Both the position numbers and the translations under genes were made by a program. A stretch of 42,695 bases of DNA from an uncultured Eubacteriales bacterium (GTDB lineage: Bacteria; Bacillota; Clostridia; Peptostreptococcales; Anaerovoracaceae), in assembly GCA_949289445.1 (NCBI GenBank), contig CASEOD010000149.1, positions 1 through 42,695 on the forward strand. The letters run 5' to 3'. Below, in pieces: positions 36,740 to 42,695 of this stretch; the first letter of the stretch is position 1, and the number at the start of each line of letters is the position of its first letter. The notes under the pieces are model-generated. The model was not told the origin of the DNA, made no database searches, and saw only the letters and a list, made by a program, of their open reading frames with translations.

Positions 36740-39718
36740 TCAACTGTGGTTTTTCAATATGCGGACATTCGGACAGTCCGCAAACGCATTTTTATCAAAG
36801 ATCGTCTCAGATCCCGCATATACTGTCTGCAAACCGGTGCATCCTCTGAATGCGAAAGCCTGTACCTCAATCACACTGTCTGGAATCCGCACTTCTGTCA
36901 GTCCCGTACAGCCGCTGAAGCAGTTTTCTGACAGATACTGCACCCCTTCTTCCAGCAAAAGTTCACCAAGTCCGCTGCATCCCGAAAATGCCCCTTTTGA
37001 AACATTGATACAGTTTCCGGGAATTCTGACTGTCTTCAGCTTTCTACAGTTAGCGAAAGCGCCTGCTCCCATAAATCTCAGAGTTTCAGGTAATCGGATT
37101 TTTTTGAGACTGACACAGTTTTCAAAGGCTTTCCTGCCGATAAACACGATTCTGTCACCACCCTCAGCTGTTTCAAGATTGCCGCACTGTGCAAAGCTTT
37201 CGGTACCTATATGCAGAACATATCTCCCCAGCTTTATCCTTCTCAGGATTTTACTGCCGCGGAATGCACTCATTCTGATTTTTTTTACCTTCTTGCCCCC
37301 AAGGCGATTTTTTATTTTCAGTTGGCTGCTGATTCCCGCAGCGCCCCATGCGGTGGCATATTCCTCAAAAATGCGGTATCTGATTCCATCCTGTTTTCTT
37401 CCGATATAATGCAGTCCCTCCACATATTTTCCGTCAGAAAAATTGGTTCCGAAAATATCGTCTATTCTTTCATCCAGCTTCACTTTGGAACTTCCCTTAA
37501 AAAGGGTCACGTCCCCTCTCTTCAGTGAAGACCGTATCCATGTGTTCATCTCTGCCGGTGAACGGCAGATCCTGATTTTAGATTTGTCGCCTGTTATATT
37601 TTTCATAATCTCACGGCTGTTGTCACCATAAAGCACCAGTTCATCAAGCCGGTTCAGATATGAAGAAAGAATATCTCCCACCTGTCTGTTTATCTCTTCT
37701 GCCTGTTCCCCCATCCCGGTAATATCCCCTATCACCGCTTTTTTCCCGCCGTCAGAACCGGGGTTCAGCTTCACCAGAACAGAAAGCGCACTTTCCACAG
37801 AATCCGCCGAAGCGTTAAAACAGTCCACAAAGAGATGATATCCTCCGACATTGACCAGATTCTGTCTGGTTCCCTCTGTTTTAAACTGCAGCAGCCCTTT
37901 TGCAATGTCGGCTCCCCGCATTCCGAGATATTTGCCCACCGCAAAGCTGCAGACCGCATTCAAAATGTTGTATGTTCCCGGCACGTTCAGTTCAACAGGA
38001 TACCGTTGTCCGCTGCCGTATACAATATCAAAGCTGGTTCTGTGTCCGTTTTCACGAATCCGATCCGCATAATAGTCTGCATTCCTGTTGTTCACTGCAA
38101 AATAGCAGGTCCTGCAGTCTGTCTTTACTGATGCCAGCAGCGGATCGTCCCCGTTGAGAAAAAGGCATCCGTCCGGTTCCATTCCTTCAGTAATCTGCAG
38201 TTTGTTCGCCATCAGTTCCAGCTGCGACTCATAGTTGCCGATATGGGCTGTGCCGATATTGGTAACGACCGAAACTGCCGGCGCAATCATTCTTGAATGC
38301 CGGGATGCGCCTCCCGGACGCCCTCCTCCGATTTCCTGAATAAAAAAGCCTGTGCCTTCTCTGATTCTCTGTACATTGATTCCGATTTTGGTCTGGACAT
38401 TTGAGTTCTTTCTGCTTTTTTCTGTTTTAAATGACTGGCACAGCACATGATACATCATATCTTTGGTAGAAGTCTTTCCCACGCTGCCTGTAATGCCTAT
38501 ACATTTAACCGGAAGACGCTTTCTGTACCATCCTATTGCCGCCACATGAGCTTCTATGGCATCTTCCACAACCATGTGGGGAATCCAAGGCAAAAGCCTG
38601 CGGCAGGAAAAAATAAACAGGGTTTTTCTCATCACTGCCCGCAGTATCAGCTTCATGCGAACCACTTCATTCACAGGCCTGCTGTCATTTTTATCCTGAA
38701 ACTGCTGTCTGTAGAAAAACACGTTTCCCGGAGCCAGTTCAGAGCTCCTTGAACAAATGCTGTTAACAGTATAGTTTTCCAGATAAGAAAACCGTTCCGG
38801 CAAAGTGACTCCGGCTGCCGCTGCAACATCACGAAGAAAGATCAGTTCATTCCACTCATGCAGGCCTCTCATCTTATCTTTCAGTTCGTTGAGAACAAAA
38901 AGCCGATCACCTTCAGACAGGAACCCATTCCTGCGGCAAATCAGAAACTGTCCATGACAGACTGCAGTGGCAAAATACCCCTGTTGTGCGACTCTTTTTC
39001 TGTCGGGGTCAAATCCGAGTCTCACCGCAGCTGCCGATCTCACGGAATTATTTTTTCCTGCCCTGTCAGTGATTTTTCCCAGAGAATAGAACACTGTTGA
39101 TTCTGAAAAATTATAAGTGCGAAGAGATCTTCTCGTATGAACCCGGCTGTTGAGACCTACCACGCACTCATAGCCGCATCTGGCAATCTTCTTTGTATAT
39201 TGGACGAAACTGTGATATGTACAGCCGCCGGAACGCTGTACATATGCTATCATGAAATCAGCTCCGGCCCTTTTCAGCATTTCCTTCCGTTTTAATATAT
39301 CATAAAGACTTGCTTCTTTTTCTGTCTTTCCAAAAAAGGTGATTCCTACTCTGGTGTTTCCCAAATCTGCAATACAGTCGGGATACCATGCCGTGTTTAT
39401 GACTCCTTTTGACAGAATCATCTGTTCAGACTCTCTGTCCAGGCCGGTCTCACAGAAAACAGCCGTACATCTGCTTTCAGTTTCAGAAATCAGAGTTTCA
39501 ATGGCAGCCGACACAAAATTGTCTGATTCTCCAGCAATTTCACCACATATGGTTAACAGCGGCAAACCTGTTTCTCCGTCATATGGTGCTCTGCACACTT
39601 TTGCCGTACTTTTTTTCCCTAAGGAGATCAACTTGACAAACACTGTTATAATCAGATATCTGATAAAACAGCTGACTGCAGAAACTGACTTCTTCAATCC
39701 GTAAATATCCGTTTTCAT
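36740..39718 (-). CDS. MurF-type ligase fused to a degenerate CapA-like domain and BspA-type repeats
   Basis: This 992-residue protein has four parts. Residues 18-34 are a hydrophobic segment with lysines on both sides. Residues 50-215 resemble a CapA (poly-gamma-glutamate) metallophosphatase-like domain, ending in TVFYSLGKIT, but the usual HWG and GHHPHV histidine motifs are replaced by YVQRSGG and VGLNSRVHT. Residues 315-755 form a complete MurF: SRSSELAPGNVFFY, P-loop GITGSVGKTST (408-418), TNIGTAHIGNY, GDDPLL, DCFNASADSVESAL, GDITGMGEQ and LFKGSSKVKL. Residues 774-992 are about eight BspA-type leucine-rich repeats (GAFANCRKLKTVRIP and similar). The start at 39718 follows AGAGGG; a TTG at 39736 is less likely. 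It follows ddl and murI, suggesting D-Ala-D-Ala or related dipeptide addition. Confidence 0.85.
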   Translation of the reverse strand: MKTDIYGLKKSVSAVSCFIRYLIITVFVKLISLGKKSTAKVCRAPYDGETGLPLLTICGEIAGESDNFVSAAIETLISETESRCTAVFCETGLDRESEQMILSKGVINTAWYPDCIADLGNTRVGITFFGKTEKEASLYDILKRKEMLKRAGADFMIAYVQRSGGCTYHSFVQYTKKIARCGYECVVGLNSRVHTRRSLRTYNFSESTVFYSLGKITDRAGKNNSVRSAAAVRLGFDPDRKRVAQQGYFATAVCHGQFLICRRNGFLSEGDRLFVLNELKDKMRGLHEWNELIFLRDVAAAAGVTLPERFSYLENYTVNSICSRSSELAPGNVFFYRQQFQDKNDSRPVNEVVRMKLILRAVMRKTLFIFSCRRLLPWIPHMVVEDAIEAHVAAIGWYRKRLPVKCIGITGSVGKTSTKDMMYHVLCQSFKTEKSRKNSNVQTKIGINVQRIREGTGFFIQEIGGGRPGGASRHSRMIAPAVSVVTNIGTAHIGNYESQLELMANKLQITEGMEPDGCLFLNGDDPLLASVKTDCRTCYFAVNNRNADYYADRIRENGHRTSFDIVYGSGQRYPVELNVPGTYNILNAVCSFAVGKYLGMRGADIAKGLLQFKTEGTRQNLVNVGGYHLFVDCFNASADSVESALSVLVKLNPGSDGGKKAVIGDITGMGEQAEEINRQVGDILSSYLNRLDELVLYGDNSREIMKNITGDKSKIRICRSPAEMNTWIRSSLKRGDVTLFKGSSKVKLDERIDDIFGTNFSDGKYVEGLHYIGRKQDGIRYRIFEEYATAWGAAGISSQLKIKNRLGGKKVKKIRMSAFRGSKILRRIKLGRYVLHIGTESFAQCGNLETAEGGDRIVFIGRKAFENCVSLKKIRLPETLRFMGAGAFANCRKLKTVRIPGNCINVSKGAFSGCSGLGELLLEEGVQYLSENCFSGCTGLTEVRIPDSVIEVQAFAFRGCTGLQTVYAGSETIFDKNAFADCPNVRILKNHS

Positions 39719-39780
39719 TTTGTTCCCTCTTAACAAGAATTTCCGTTTTTAATCCGGGGTTCGGCCGGAATAACGGTTTT

Positions 39781-40596
39781 TTAAAACTCCTGTCCGTGAA
39801 AAATTCCCACATGAAAGGCATCTCTGTTGCCTTCCGAAATTCTCCACAGAAGATCGATAAAATGGTTTGAAATATCGCTGGCAAAAAACAGATGTTCTGC
39901 TTTCCTGGGTTCCGCCAGTCCATCTATTTTTTTCAGTTCCAGCTCCACCGCTCTGGATACCTCCGCAGAAGAGCTTATAATCCTCAAATCCGGATAGATT
40001 TTTGCTATCTCTTCTTCTATGAGAGGATAATGGGTGCATCCGAGGATAAGATCCCGGATCTTGTTTTCTTTGATAAAACTGTCAAGATAATACTGTATCG
40101 TCAGGTCCATTATTCTATTCTTGACAATTCCTTCCTCAATCAGAGGAACAAAGGCAGGACAGGCAGTAGAAAAAACCTTCAGATCTGGTCTTTTTTCCAC
40201 GATCTTTTTTGCATAAGTACCGCTTTTAACAGTTGCTCTCGTCGCAATGACCCCTACATGATCCCCTGATAAACAGGTTTTTTCAGCTACTTTTACTGTA
40301 GGTGACACCACACCGATAATTGGAATTTCCGGATGACGGGTTCTCAATTGATCCAAGCAGGTGGCGCTTACTGTATTACAGGCCGCAACGATCATTTTCA
40401 CATCATGTTTAGCCAGAAAATCTGTAATTTCTGAAGAGAAGTATTCAATTGTTTCCTTTGATTTTGAACCATAAGGTGCTCTTGCTGTATCCCCGTAATA
40501 AATAATGTTCTCATACGGAAGATTCTTCAGTACGGGAGGAATACTGGTCAGACCTCCCACACCGGAGTCAAAAAAACCGATTGCTCTGTTATCCAT
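39781..40596 (-). CDS. murI: Glutamate racemase
   Basis: This 271-residue cofactor-independent racemase makes D-glutamate for peptidoglycan. FFDSGVGGLT at residues 8-17 and both catalytic cysteines, in VAACNTVSAT near residue 71 and LILGCTHYPLIEEE near residue 182, are present, so it should be active. The start at 40596 is chosen because it lies at the family N-terminus (MDNRAIGFFDSG) with GGGAAG upstream; it overlaps the ddl 3' end by 8 nt. A longer frame from 40659 would only add ddl-overlapping sequence. Confidence 0.93.
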   Translation of the reverse strand: MDNRAIGFFDSGVGGLTSIPPVLKNLPYENIIYYGDTARAPYGSKSKETIEYFSSEITDFLAKHDVKMIVAACNTVSATCLDQLRTRHPEIPIIGVVSPTVKVAEKTCLSGDHVGVIATRATVKSGTYAKKIVEKRPDLKVFSTACPAFVPLIEEGIVKNRIMDLTIQYYLDSFIKENKIRDLILGCTHYPLIEEEIAKIYPDLRIISSSAEVSRAVELELKKIDGLAEPRKAEHLFFASDISNHFIDLLWRISEGNRDAFHVGIFHGQEF

Positions 40597-41695
40597 TTTG
40601 GCGACTTCCCGTTTCTGTTGCTTCAGCAGATAACCCTGCCTGTTTGTCCTGCGCATCACAGATCAGTCTGGTAAACAGTTCTTTTCTCCACAGTCCTTTT
40701 GCCTCGAACATGGATACATAGACACTGCGGGTTCCCAGTCCCGGGATCGTATTCAGCTCATTGAAATAAACCTTCCCTTTTCGGTCAACAAAAAAATCCA
40801 CCCTTGCAAATCCTCTGCATTCAAGTTCTTCATATATAAGCAGAGCCTGTTTTTTTAACTCATCTTCCAGTTTTTTGTCTATGAGCGCCGGAATTTCCTT
40901 TACGGAAGAAAAACTATGATACTTTGTATTGTAATCATTAAGATTCCCTTCCGGTACAGTGAGTCTGCAAATTTCACCTGTCTCGGGAGTTCTGTCTCCC
41001 AGGACAGCGACTTTGATTTCATATCCGTCAATACTTTCCTCCACAAGAATCTTCTCATCGTAGGAAAATGCTGTTCTCATAGCTTCAAGAAGCTGCGCGG
41101 TGTTTTCAGCCTTTGACACCCCCACTGAACTTCCCTGCTTCGCCGGTTTCACATATACAGGAAATTGAAGAAAAGCTGCGTCTGACAGAAAATCCTCAAT
41201 TCTTCCTGCCCGCGTTCTCTTCAGTACAGCACAGGACGGAAGATTCATACCGCATGACTGTGCAAACAGCCTTGTGATCTGTTTGTCCATGGCACAGGCT
41301 GAAGCAGCCACACCTGATCCCACATAGGGTATCCCTGAAAGTTCCAGAAGGCCCTGAAGACATCCGTCTTCTCCGCCAAATCCGTGAATCAGAGGAAATA
41401 CGCAGTCTATGGGAATTTCCTCAATCCCTGTTTCAGTCTGAACGGTTACAGAATGATTTCCTCTGATCGGAGTAAGGAAGGCAGGATAATTGGTATCGCT
41501 TTTTGTCCATGAAATTCCGTCACCTATCTCCTCTGACGCAGCACCGGTAAGTACCCACTTCCCATTCAATGTAATGCCGAGCGTCAAAACATTAAAAAGA
41601 TCCGTATCAATATTTCTTATAACTTCCGATGCAGAATCACAGGAAACATAGTATTCCGGATTGCTGCCTCCGAAAATCAACAAAACAGTCTGCAT
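40589..41695 (-). CDS. ddl: D-alanine-D-alanine ligase family protein, VanG-like subgroup
   Basis: This 368-residue ATP-grasp enzyme joins D-alanine to D-alanine or another D-residue. Seen residues are the N-terminal Glu in SNPEYYVSC, the Ser in KPAKQGSSVGVSK, the omega-loop Tyr in LNDYNTKYHS, Arg in GFARVDFF and the closing NELNTIPGLGTRSVY. The tyrosine in the omega loop argues against D-lactate as second substrate. Overall it looks closer to the VanG-type group than to E. coli DdlB, by memory. The start at 41695 follows GGAGG spaced 8 nt. It is the first gene of ddl-murI-MurF fusion. No vanX, vanT or vanRS neighbours are present. Confidence 0.88.
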   Translation of the reverse strand: MQTVLLIFGGSNPEYYVSCDSASEVIRNIDTDLFNVLTLGITLNGKWVLTGAASEEIGDGISWTKSDTNYPAFLTPIRGNHSVTVQTETGIEEIPIDCVFPLIHGFGGEDGCLQGLLELSGIPYVGSGVAASACAMDKQITRLFAQSCGMNLPSCAVLKRTRAGRIEDFLSDAAFLQFPVYVKPAKQGSSVGVSKAENTAQLLEAMRTAFSYDEKILVEESIDGYEIKVAVLGDRTPETGEICRLTVPEGNLNDYNTKYHSFSSVKEIPALIDKKLEDELKKQALLIYEELECRGFARVDFFVDRKGKVYFNELNTIPGLGTRSVYVSMFEAKGLWRKELFTRLICDAQDKQAGLSAEATETGSRQNG

Positions 41696-41727
41696 CTTTT
41701 CTTCCTCCATCGTTTTCATCTATGCCA

Positions 41728-42021: not shown

Positions 42022-42695
42022 TTACTGTGCCGTCCTGTTTTTTTGATTTCTGTACTCACCTTTCAGCGACTGATATAAGGCTTTGCAGCAAGCCAGCATG
42101 ATAAACAGAAACGGAAATGCAACCACAAGCGATATGGTCTGAATGGCATTCAACCCGCCAGAGATAAGCAGACCGATCGCAAGCAGAGAGATCATTACCG
42201 CCCAGGATATTTTTCTTGCCGGGGACGGATCCAGATTTCCCTCTGACGAAAACATTCCCAGAACAAAAGTACCTGAATCTGCTGAAGTAACAAAGAATGT
42301 AAACAAAAGCAGAATGGCGATCACCGACAGCAGTGTTCCCAGACTGTACTCGTTCAATATTGCAAAAAGAGCGGTTTCCGGAGACGAAGTCAACTCTGCA
42401 AGGGTGGAAAGCGGCAGAATGTCTTTCTTTCCCAGATTGATCCCTAGGTTTCCGAAAATGGCAAACCAGATGCAGGAAGCTGCCGTCGGCACCAGAAGAA
42501 CCCCGATAACAAACTCTCTGATAGTTCTTCCCTTTGATATCCTCGCTATAAAGCATCCCACAAAAGGCCCCCAGGAAATCCACCATGCCCAGTAAAATAC
42601 CCGCCAACTGATTGTCCAGTTGTTGTCACCGTATGGGCTCAGATGCAGACTTTCTTCCACAATATCTGAAACATATGAACCGACTCCGCCAACCA
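42022..42695 (-). CDS. BCCT family (betaine/carnitine/choline) transporter, C-terminal part
   Basis: The frame is open through the right edge, so the N-terminal half is missing; 224 residues are visible. The BCCT signature is clear in FYWAWWISWGPFVGCFIARI followed by SKGRTIREF. Later helices include FTFFVTSADSGTFVLG, matching the conserved region after the signature. A GTG at 42660 is in frame but sits in the middle of the family, so it is not the true start. Such proteins take up or exchange quaternary ammonium compounds such as glycine betaine, carnitine or choline. The cargo cannot be told from this part. A terminator follows at 41908-41957. Confidence 0.9.
   Translation of the reverse strand, partial: VGGVGSYVSDIVEESLHLSPYGDNNWTISWRVFYWAWWISWGPFVGCFIARISKGRTIREFVIGVLLVPTAASCIWFAIFGNLGINLGKKDILPLSTLAELTSSPETALFAILNEYSLGTLLSVIAILLLFTFFVTSADSGTFVLGMFSSEGNLDPSPARKISWAVMISLLAIGLLISGGLNAIQTISLVVAFPFLFIMLACCKALYQSLKGEYRNQKNRTAQ

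Follow-up and report, generated by a model that had tools for sequence, protein, structure and literature searches.

Why should a bacterium with an ordinary MurF also carry a MurF-type ligase built, in one reading frame, between a worn CapA-like segment and a tail of leucine-rich repeats (LRRs), and which polymer might such an enzyme serve? The question is raised by a gene at positions 36740-39718 (minus strand) of contig CASEOD010000149.1 from an uncultured Eubacteriales bacterium of the family Anaerovoracaceae; the whole stretch analyzed, 42,695 nucleotides, is called the window here. An earlier note had described a three-part fusion at this locus and had taken its CapA-like and repeat parts for cytoplasmic scaffolds or sensors of a ligase acting on peptidoglycan precursors or a related polymer. 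This interpretation is partly supported. The gene is indeed a single frame of 992 residues that joins a CapA-derived remnant, a three-domain MurF-type ligase, and eight BspA-type repeats, and a related polymer appears a likelier target than peptidoglycan. On balance, we lean toward the view that the fusion is a MurF paralogue working outside peptidoglycan synthesis, which would attach a D-amino-acid dipeptide to a different surface polymer; we infer both the substrates and the polymer. Counted for this view are the gene linkage, the separate clades, the motif loss, the retained ATP site, and the plain murF elsewhere in the genome. Peptidoglycan enzymes would have been duplicated and then re-aimed.

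Domain layout of the fusion

The open frame (36740-39736, minus strand) has 998 open codons when counted from a TTG. The ATG at 39718, which is preceded by a plausible ribosome site (AAGAGGGAACAAA) and gives the 992-residue product, is the likelier start. The gene and its parts are as follows.

36740-39718, minus: fusion of CapA remnant, MurF-type ligase, and BspA-type LRRs, 992 residues, starting at an ATG with a plausible ribosome site
39584-39718, minus: residues 1-45, basic N-terminus (nine K/R, one D/E) with a hydrophobic helix at about 12-33; possible membrane attachment
38948-39424, minus: residues 99-257, degenerate segment derived from CapA (PGA_cap) and lacking the CapA histidines, from profile comparison
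38519-38851, minus: residues 290-400, N-domain of the MurF part, in which R324-S325-S326 and K343-N344-D345 stand in place of D[ST]R and DGH, from alignment
37937-38494, minus: residues 409-594, Mur_ligase_M ATP domain with conserved TGSVGKT loop (410-416), E462, H492, and K506
37490-37861, minus: residues 620-743, Mur_ligase_C; DCFNAS (632-637) resembles the clostridial MurF motif
36752-37321, minus: residues 800-989, eight BspA-type LRRs of about 23 residues

Pfam recognizes the Mur_ligase_M (E 3e-33) and Mur_ligase_C (E 1e-8) domains, and an AlphaFold2 model of the whole protein has mostly high confidence from about residue 290 on, i.e., across the MurF and LRR parts. Compared with solved structures, this model matches MurF 4qf5 (TM 0.86 by target, E 9e-29). 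The tail passes the Pfam cut-off for LRR_5 (E 6e-51, best stretch 860-985). Its eight F-x-x-C/S units lie at residues 819, 842, 865, 888, 911, 934, 957, and 979, with a spacing of 23 residues except for the last (22), in line with the earlier count of about eight 23-residue repeats. When the tail was shuffled 10,000 times, its five exact 23-residue F-x-x-C spacings were never reached. The same LRR type ends a 585-residue ATPgrasp_ST ligase on contig C150 of the same genome (L146:7804-9561), and frames of 610 (G009) and 585 (G005) residues also match both ATPgrasp_ST and LRR parts. Because the C150 enzyme shares this repeat type, the tail of the fusion may be read as a docking part.

Residues 99-257 are, from profile comparison, homologous to the second half of CapA/PgsA (PGA_cap, PF09587). 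A Pfam search with the window protein alone gave no CapA match. However, a profile of nine N-termini of window-type fusions, i.e., those with all three parts, matched, over these residues, a profile built from five CapA proteins of the genus that stand alone (probability 97%, E 1e-10), and the window and G009 rows alone still matched the CapA profile (70%, E 4e-5). Controls with unrelated alignments reached at most 0.2% (seven alignments, nine-row profile) and 0.7% (six alignments, window and G009 profile). Moreover, the fusions of two relatives in the same genus pass the Pfam CapA cut-off (L049, E 2e-29; L047, E 2e-19), as does one fusion of G220 (E 1e-28), and the window-type N-terminus of G012 has a weak match below the cut-off (E 2.9e-5 and E 1.4e-4; 21.9 vs 27 bits). 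At aligned positions, the window protein has YVQRS for the YHGGE or YHGG of CapA and NSR for HPH, and it retains FYSLG. The motifs GD, ANNH, YHGGE, and HPH are absent from its N-terminus, whereas the five stand-alone CapA proteins all share GD, ANNH, and the histidines without variation. The segment is therefore a CapA remnant that has lost its metal-site histidines, as had been claimed; the claimed extent (residues 50-215) is to be replaced by the shifted and shorter 99-257. No recognizable counterpart of the first half of CapA was found in the window protein. Two CapA-MurF fusions (L049:8933-12322 and L154:14095-17373) have two tandem CapA-related stretches, of which the first is the more worn. 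Among solved structures, the profile of the N-termini did not recover a solved CapA; its sole match, 7uek 'OT3' (E 2e-4), was taken as chance.

The ligase core and its operon partners

The stand-alone murF that the earlier note had proposed to look for is present: it adjoins murE in the same genome (G000:C23) and scores 399 bits against a murF cut-off of 289. In comparison, the window protein reaches 219.2 bits (TIGR01143, UDP-MurNAc-tripeptide:D-Ala-D-Ala ligase; cut-off 288.6). All ten scanned fusions fall below this cut-off and all three ordinary MurF proteins above it. In a tree of the ligase cores with the genome's own MurE as the outgroup, 25 fusions formed one clade (support 97/94, for the 25 fusions alone) apart from 14 ordinary MurF proteins, which were a selection (12 plain MurF chosen at named loci, together with those of the window genome and of G020). 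The fusion clade comprises three groups. The first contains CapA-MurF fusions without LRRs (five rows; CapA recognized by Pfam in three and by the N-terminal profile in all five). The second contains MurF-LRR fusions of 619-708 residues without CapA (eight rows, all with Pfam LRR_5). The third contains the window type with CapA remnant, MurF, and LRRs (12 rows; Pfam LRR_5 in all four scanned). The same domain order is present elsewhere in Clostridia.

The fusions differ from ordinary MurF in the N-domain. At the aligned columns, D[ST]R and the DGH-like [DN][GA][HN] are found in all 14 ordinary MurF proteins, whereas none of the 25 fusions has either; the letters DSR of the window protein sit elsewhere, within QDKNDSRP. 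The ATP-site residues (P-loop, E462, H492, and K506) show little or no variation across 21 aligned rows, and DC[FY]NAS is present in all 12 window-type rows. Thus, the fusion ligase has the full set of domains and of ATP-site residues, and it lacks the N-domain motifs of ordinary MurF. The earlier description of a complete MurF with intact motifs stands for the former and fails for the latter.

Two genes upstream of the fusion encode probable suppliers of its substrates.

39781-40596, minus: glutamate racemase (MurI), one of two copies identified in this genome; separated from the downstream fusion by 62 bases
40589-41719, minus: Ddl-type D-Ala-D-amino-acid ligase that falls in a clade of its own; its last 8 bases overlap the start of MurI

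The order is Ddl-MurI-fusion, with the fusion last. Because the genes share one strand, with an 8-base overlap and a 62-base gap, they are probably co-transcribed. Three Ddl-type ligases and two MurI were found in the window genome. In the Ddl tree, the operon copy and those beside window-type fusions formed one clade (100/97; eight rows, seven distinct genes), and the other two Ddl of the window genome fell outside it. A changed substrate loop, ND[FY], is present in all eight rows of this clade and in none of the 42 others, two of which gave no match to the pattern. Of the 30 Ddl places found in 15 genomes, the seven operon copies have the loop and the remaining 23 lack it (one Ddl was unmatched by the pattern, and one of the window genome, missed by ORF calling, was read separately). 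Operon-type Ddl is present in seven of the eight genomes with a window-type fusion (all but G207) and in none of the seven without (Fisher p 0.0014, uncorrected for kinship).

These findings also bear on the possibility that the fusion is a second peptidoglycan MurF that uses a variant dipeptide (D-Ala-D-X) from the operon Ddl and so alters the stem-peptide ends, as in glycopeptide-tolerant organisms. The altered loop of the partner Ddl and the conserved DC[FY]NAS motif are consistent with it, and Ddl next to MurF is an ordinary arrangement in many Clostridia. Nevertheless, we regard it as unlikely, given that every fusion lacks the N-domain motifs and that the scanned fusions score below the murF cut-off. 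Furthermore, the VanG-type ligase of this genome is encoded elsewhere, with a VanW-like gene beside it, and no van-type partner was found among ten scanned genes of the window, where the fragment upstream of Ddl was judged by eye only. The operon Ddl itself scores 327 bits against the VanG model, below its cut-off of 495. The VanG-type D-Ala-D-Ser ligase (contig C7, L058:2478-6405), apart from the window operon, scores 534 bits, above the curated cut-off; judged by eye, a sensor kinase and a response regulator seem to adjoin it.

Surface-polymer genes and the proposed function of the fusion

Relatives of the window genome provide the link to a polymer. In G010 and G012, a single cluster has, in this order, MurI, a fusion (A), Ddl, an ABC permease and ATPase, a CDP-glycerol-type transferase, ATPgrasp_ST, a nucleotidyltransferase, CapA, a second fusion (B) on the opposite strand, and LCP; G012 has one extra ATP-grasp-like gene. 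The same genes are split over two contigs in G002. In G207 (Horse_feces280), the fusion is found with the transferase, the nucleotidyltransferase, and four ATP-grasp-like genes. In G220, which belongs to another genus, the Ddl-MurI-fusion order is identical to that of the window and is followed by ATP-grasp-like genes. In G009, Ddl comes after an LCP gene, and the fusion lies beside LCP. Teichoic-acid-type export clusters are known with TagF, TagGH, and LCP. Such genes, together with ATPgrasp_ST (PF14397), stand beside the fusion in relatives, whose clusters differ in having Mur-type ligases, Ddl, and MurI in addition. The window genome has a teichoic-acid-like cluster on its contig C162 (L145:5501-13775) with a CDP-glycerol-type transferase, ATPgrasp_ST, a nucleotidyltransferase, a 777-residue ATP-grasp protein, an ABC exporter, and LCP.

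In the favored pathway, MurI would supply D-glutamate, and the operon Ddl would make a dipeptide from D-Ala and a second D-amino acid, either D-Ala again or a different one. With ATP, the Mur domains would activate the carboxylate of a carrier, which would not be UDP-MurNAc-tripeptide, and couple it to the amine of this dipeptide. The product may be a part or a decoration of a surface polymer similar to teichoic acid. The remaining genes for this polymer would be those that neighbor the operon in relatives and those on C162 in the window genome. The ABC pair would export this polymer and LCP would fix it to peptidoglycan, roles that we take from the family names. The CapA remnant may be a non-catalytic domain that binds and does not cut, the basic N-terminus may contact the membrane, and the LRR tail may dock other enzymes of the pathway.

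Several observations weigh against this reading. The window stops just past Ddl, and because the polymer cluster of the window genome lies on C162 and not beside the operon, the polymer link in this genome is by kinship only. The MurI tree (nine rows) shows no separate operon clade, and for this reason no specialized MurI is claimed; since no MurI besides the cluster copy was found in G002, G010, G012, and G220, the presence of this copy there may be housekeeping. G207 carries the fusion without the operon Ddl or a neighboring MurI, and the sole Ddl found in G008 adjoins a CapA-MurF fusion. The commonness of Ddl-MurF neighbors in Clostridia, mentioned above, counts here as well. In three MurF-LRR rows (DPK, DVR, and DPR), the D of D[ST]R is retained, and two of these rows have its R as well; the role of D[ST]R and DGH in binding UDP-MurNAc is taken from MurE and MurF structures. 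The fusion trait is accessory in the genus, with the window type in six of 13 genomes and CapA-MurF in two more. The CapA part has no confident structural model: pLDDT is low across most of residues 1-290, and a model of a relative's N-terminus, which is less worn (pLDDT 38), gave no significant fold match. Finally, the hydrophobic stretch at residues 15-33 of the window protein (mean hydropathy 2.0) could be read as an export anchor; the same region in the window-type fusions of G002, G010, G012, and G220 has a hydropathy of 0.4-1.0. This stretch, together with the stand-alone CapA of the same genome (C9), which opens with a long hydrophobic stretch, bears on the compartment paradox seen by the earlier note, namely that CapA, MurF, and BspA-type repeats usually work in different places. 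The paradox is weakened by three stand-alone CapA proteins of relatives' clusters (L040, L041, and L043), which make a cytoplasmic CapA plausible because their first domain motif comes almost directly at the protein start.

Alternatively, the fusion may be a poly-gamma-D-glutamate-like synthetase, in which the CapA remnant and the Mur-type ligase (in the place of CapB/PgsB) would act on D-glutamate from MurI. The CapA kinship of the N-terminal segment, the MurI of the operon, and the stand-alone CapA in relatives' clusters fit this comparison, which the earlier note had drawn and which turns out to be weak. The best NCBIfam matches of the window protein are MurF-type, with no CapB among the best 25 of 27, and Ddl, which is present here, is not needed for polyglutamate. 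In addition, CapC (PF14102) was found in none of the 13 genomes of the genus, with a positive B. subtilis control and a window assembly that is 85% complete. We thus consider such a synthetase improbable. The excerpts of PMC11915815 state that CapB is not related to MurC-F, and those of PMC3815933, on polyglutamate enzymes, describe short L-PGA in a wall polymer and suggest an ATP-grasp synthetase. An ATP-grasp domain is predicted to modify surface polymers in the part of PMC2824669 consulted.

A cytoplasmic peptide or storage-polymer maker, similar to cyanophycin synthetase and unrelated to the envelope, would also fit a ligase of this kind. The pseudomurein genes and cyanophycin synthetase (CphA, an ATP-grasp and Mur fusion) treated in the excerpts of PMC11915815 likewise concern Mur ligases that work outside bacterial peptidoglycan with ATP-grasp enzymes, and ATPgrasp_ST genes are present in 12 of the 13 genomes of the genus. 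However, the relatives link the fusion to an ABC exporter, a CDP-glycerol-type transferase, and LCP, and a storage role accordingly has a low probability in our judgment. For the pseudomurein and cyanophycin enzymes, those excerpts describe no CapA remnant or LRR, and their kinship with the fusion was judged by family scores only. Lastly, a regulator or sensor made of worn-out enzymes without ligase activity, to which the lost CapA histidines and the changed N-domain motifs might point, is very improbable, as the P-loop, E462, H492, and K506 are retained across the aligned rows and the fusion travels with substrate-making enzymes.

Beyond the favored MurF paralogue, a broader proposal is possible and is offered tentatively: these Clostridia may have an undescribed class of wall polymer, a teichoic-acid-like chain with D-amino-acid peptides made by re-aimed Ddl, MurI, and MurF with ATP-grasp enzymes, in which shared LRR tails would serve as a cytoplasmic docking code. 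If the favored reading is true, peptidoglycan precursor enzymes would have been re-used as a set for another surface polymer. These Clostridia, of which one named carrier was sampled in horse feces, would then have an envelope chemistry that immune receptors, phages, and D-amino-acid-based labelling could encounter. Where 'murF' and 'ddl' are assigned automatically in these genomes, the enzymes may belong to another pathway. The fusion also places BspA-type repeats, as possible docking parts, on enzymes of a cytoplasmic type.

Distribution and further observations

Within the genus, the window type is found in G000, G002, G005 (in pieces at contig ends), G009, G010, and G012, and the CapA-MurF type alone in G006 and G008. 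In the family, at least eight of 349 genomes have the window type. Outside it, the listed matches at E 1e-95 or better are frames of 386-513 residues, i.e., of plain MurF length. The order (393 genomes) and class (391) sets are samples, and the counts are lower bounds, with two candidates scored per genome and an E-value threshold set at 1e-60 or 1e-95. The named carriers, Eubacteriaceae SUG1884 and Clostridia Horse_feces280, are uncultured assemblies. A contig search with the single protein recovered no relative, whereas one with an alignment did. The viral contigs gave one stand-alone CapA and no fusion. Among the best matches in the open-access full-text literature, part of which was crowded by muscle MuRF papers, no CapA-MurF or MurF-LRR fusion was described.

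At the contig edge, upstream of Ddl, the window has an open-ended transporter fragment (42022-42693, minus strand) that is BCCT-like by eye only. MurF-type ligases with an LRR tail and no CapA part are encoded at L068:9494-11608, L069:4885-7011, L156:3243-5336, and L157:5839-7845. Those of L068 and L069 directly follow an rpsT-like gene (by eye), and the L157 copy lies among ATP-grasp genes.

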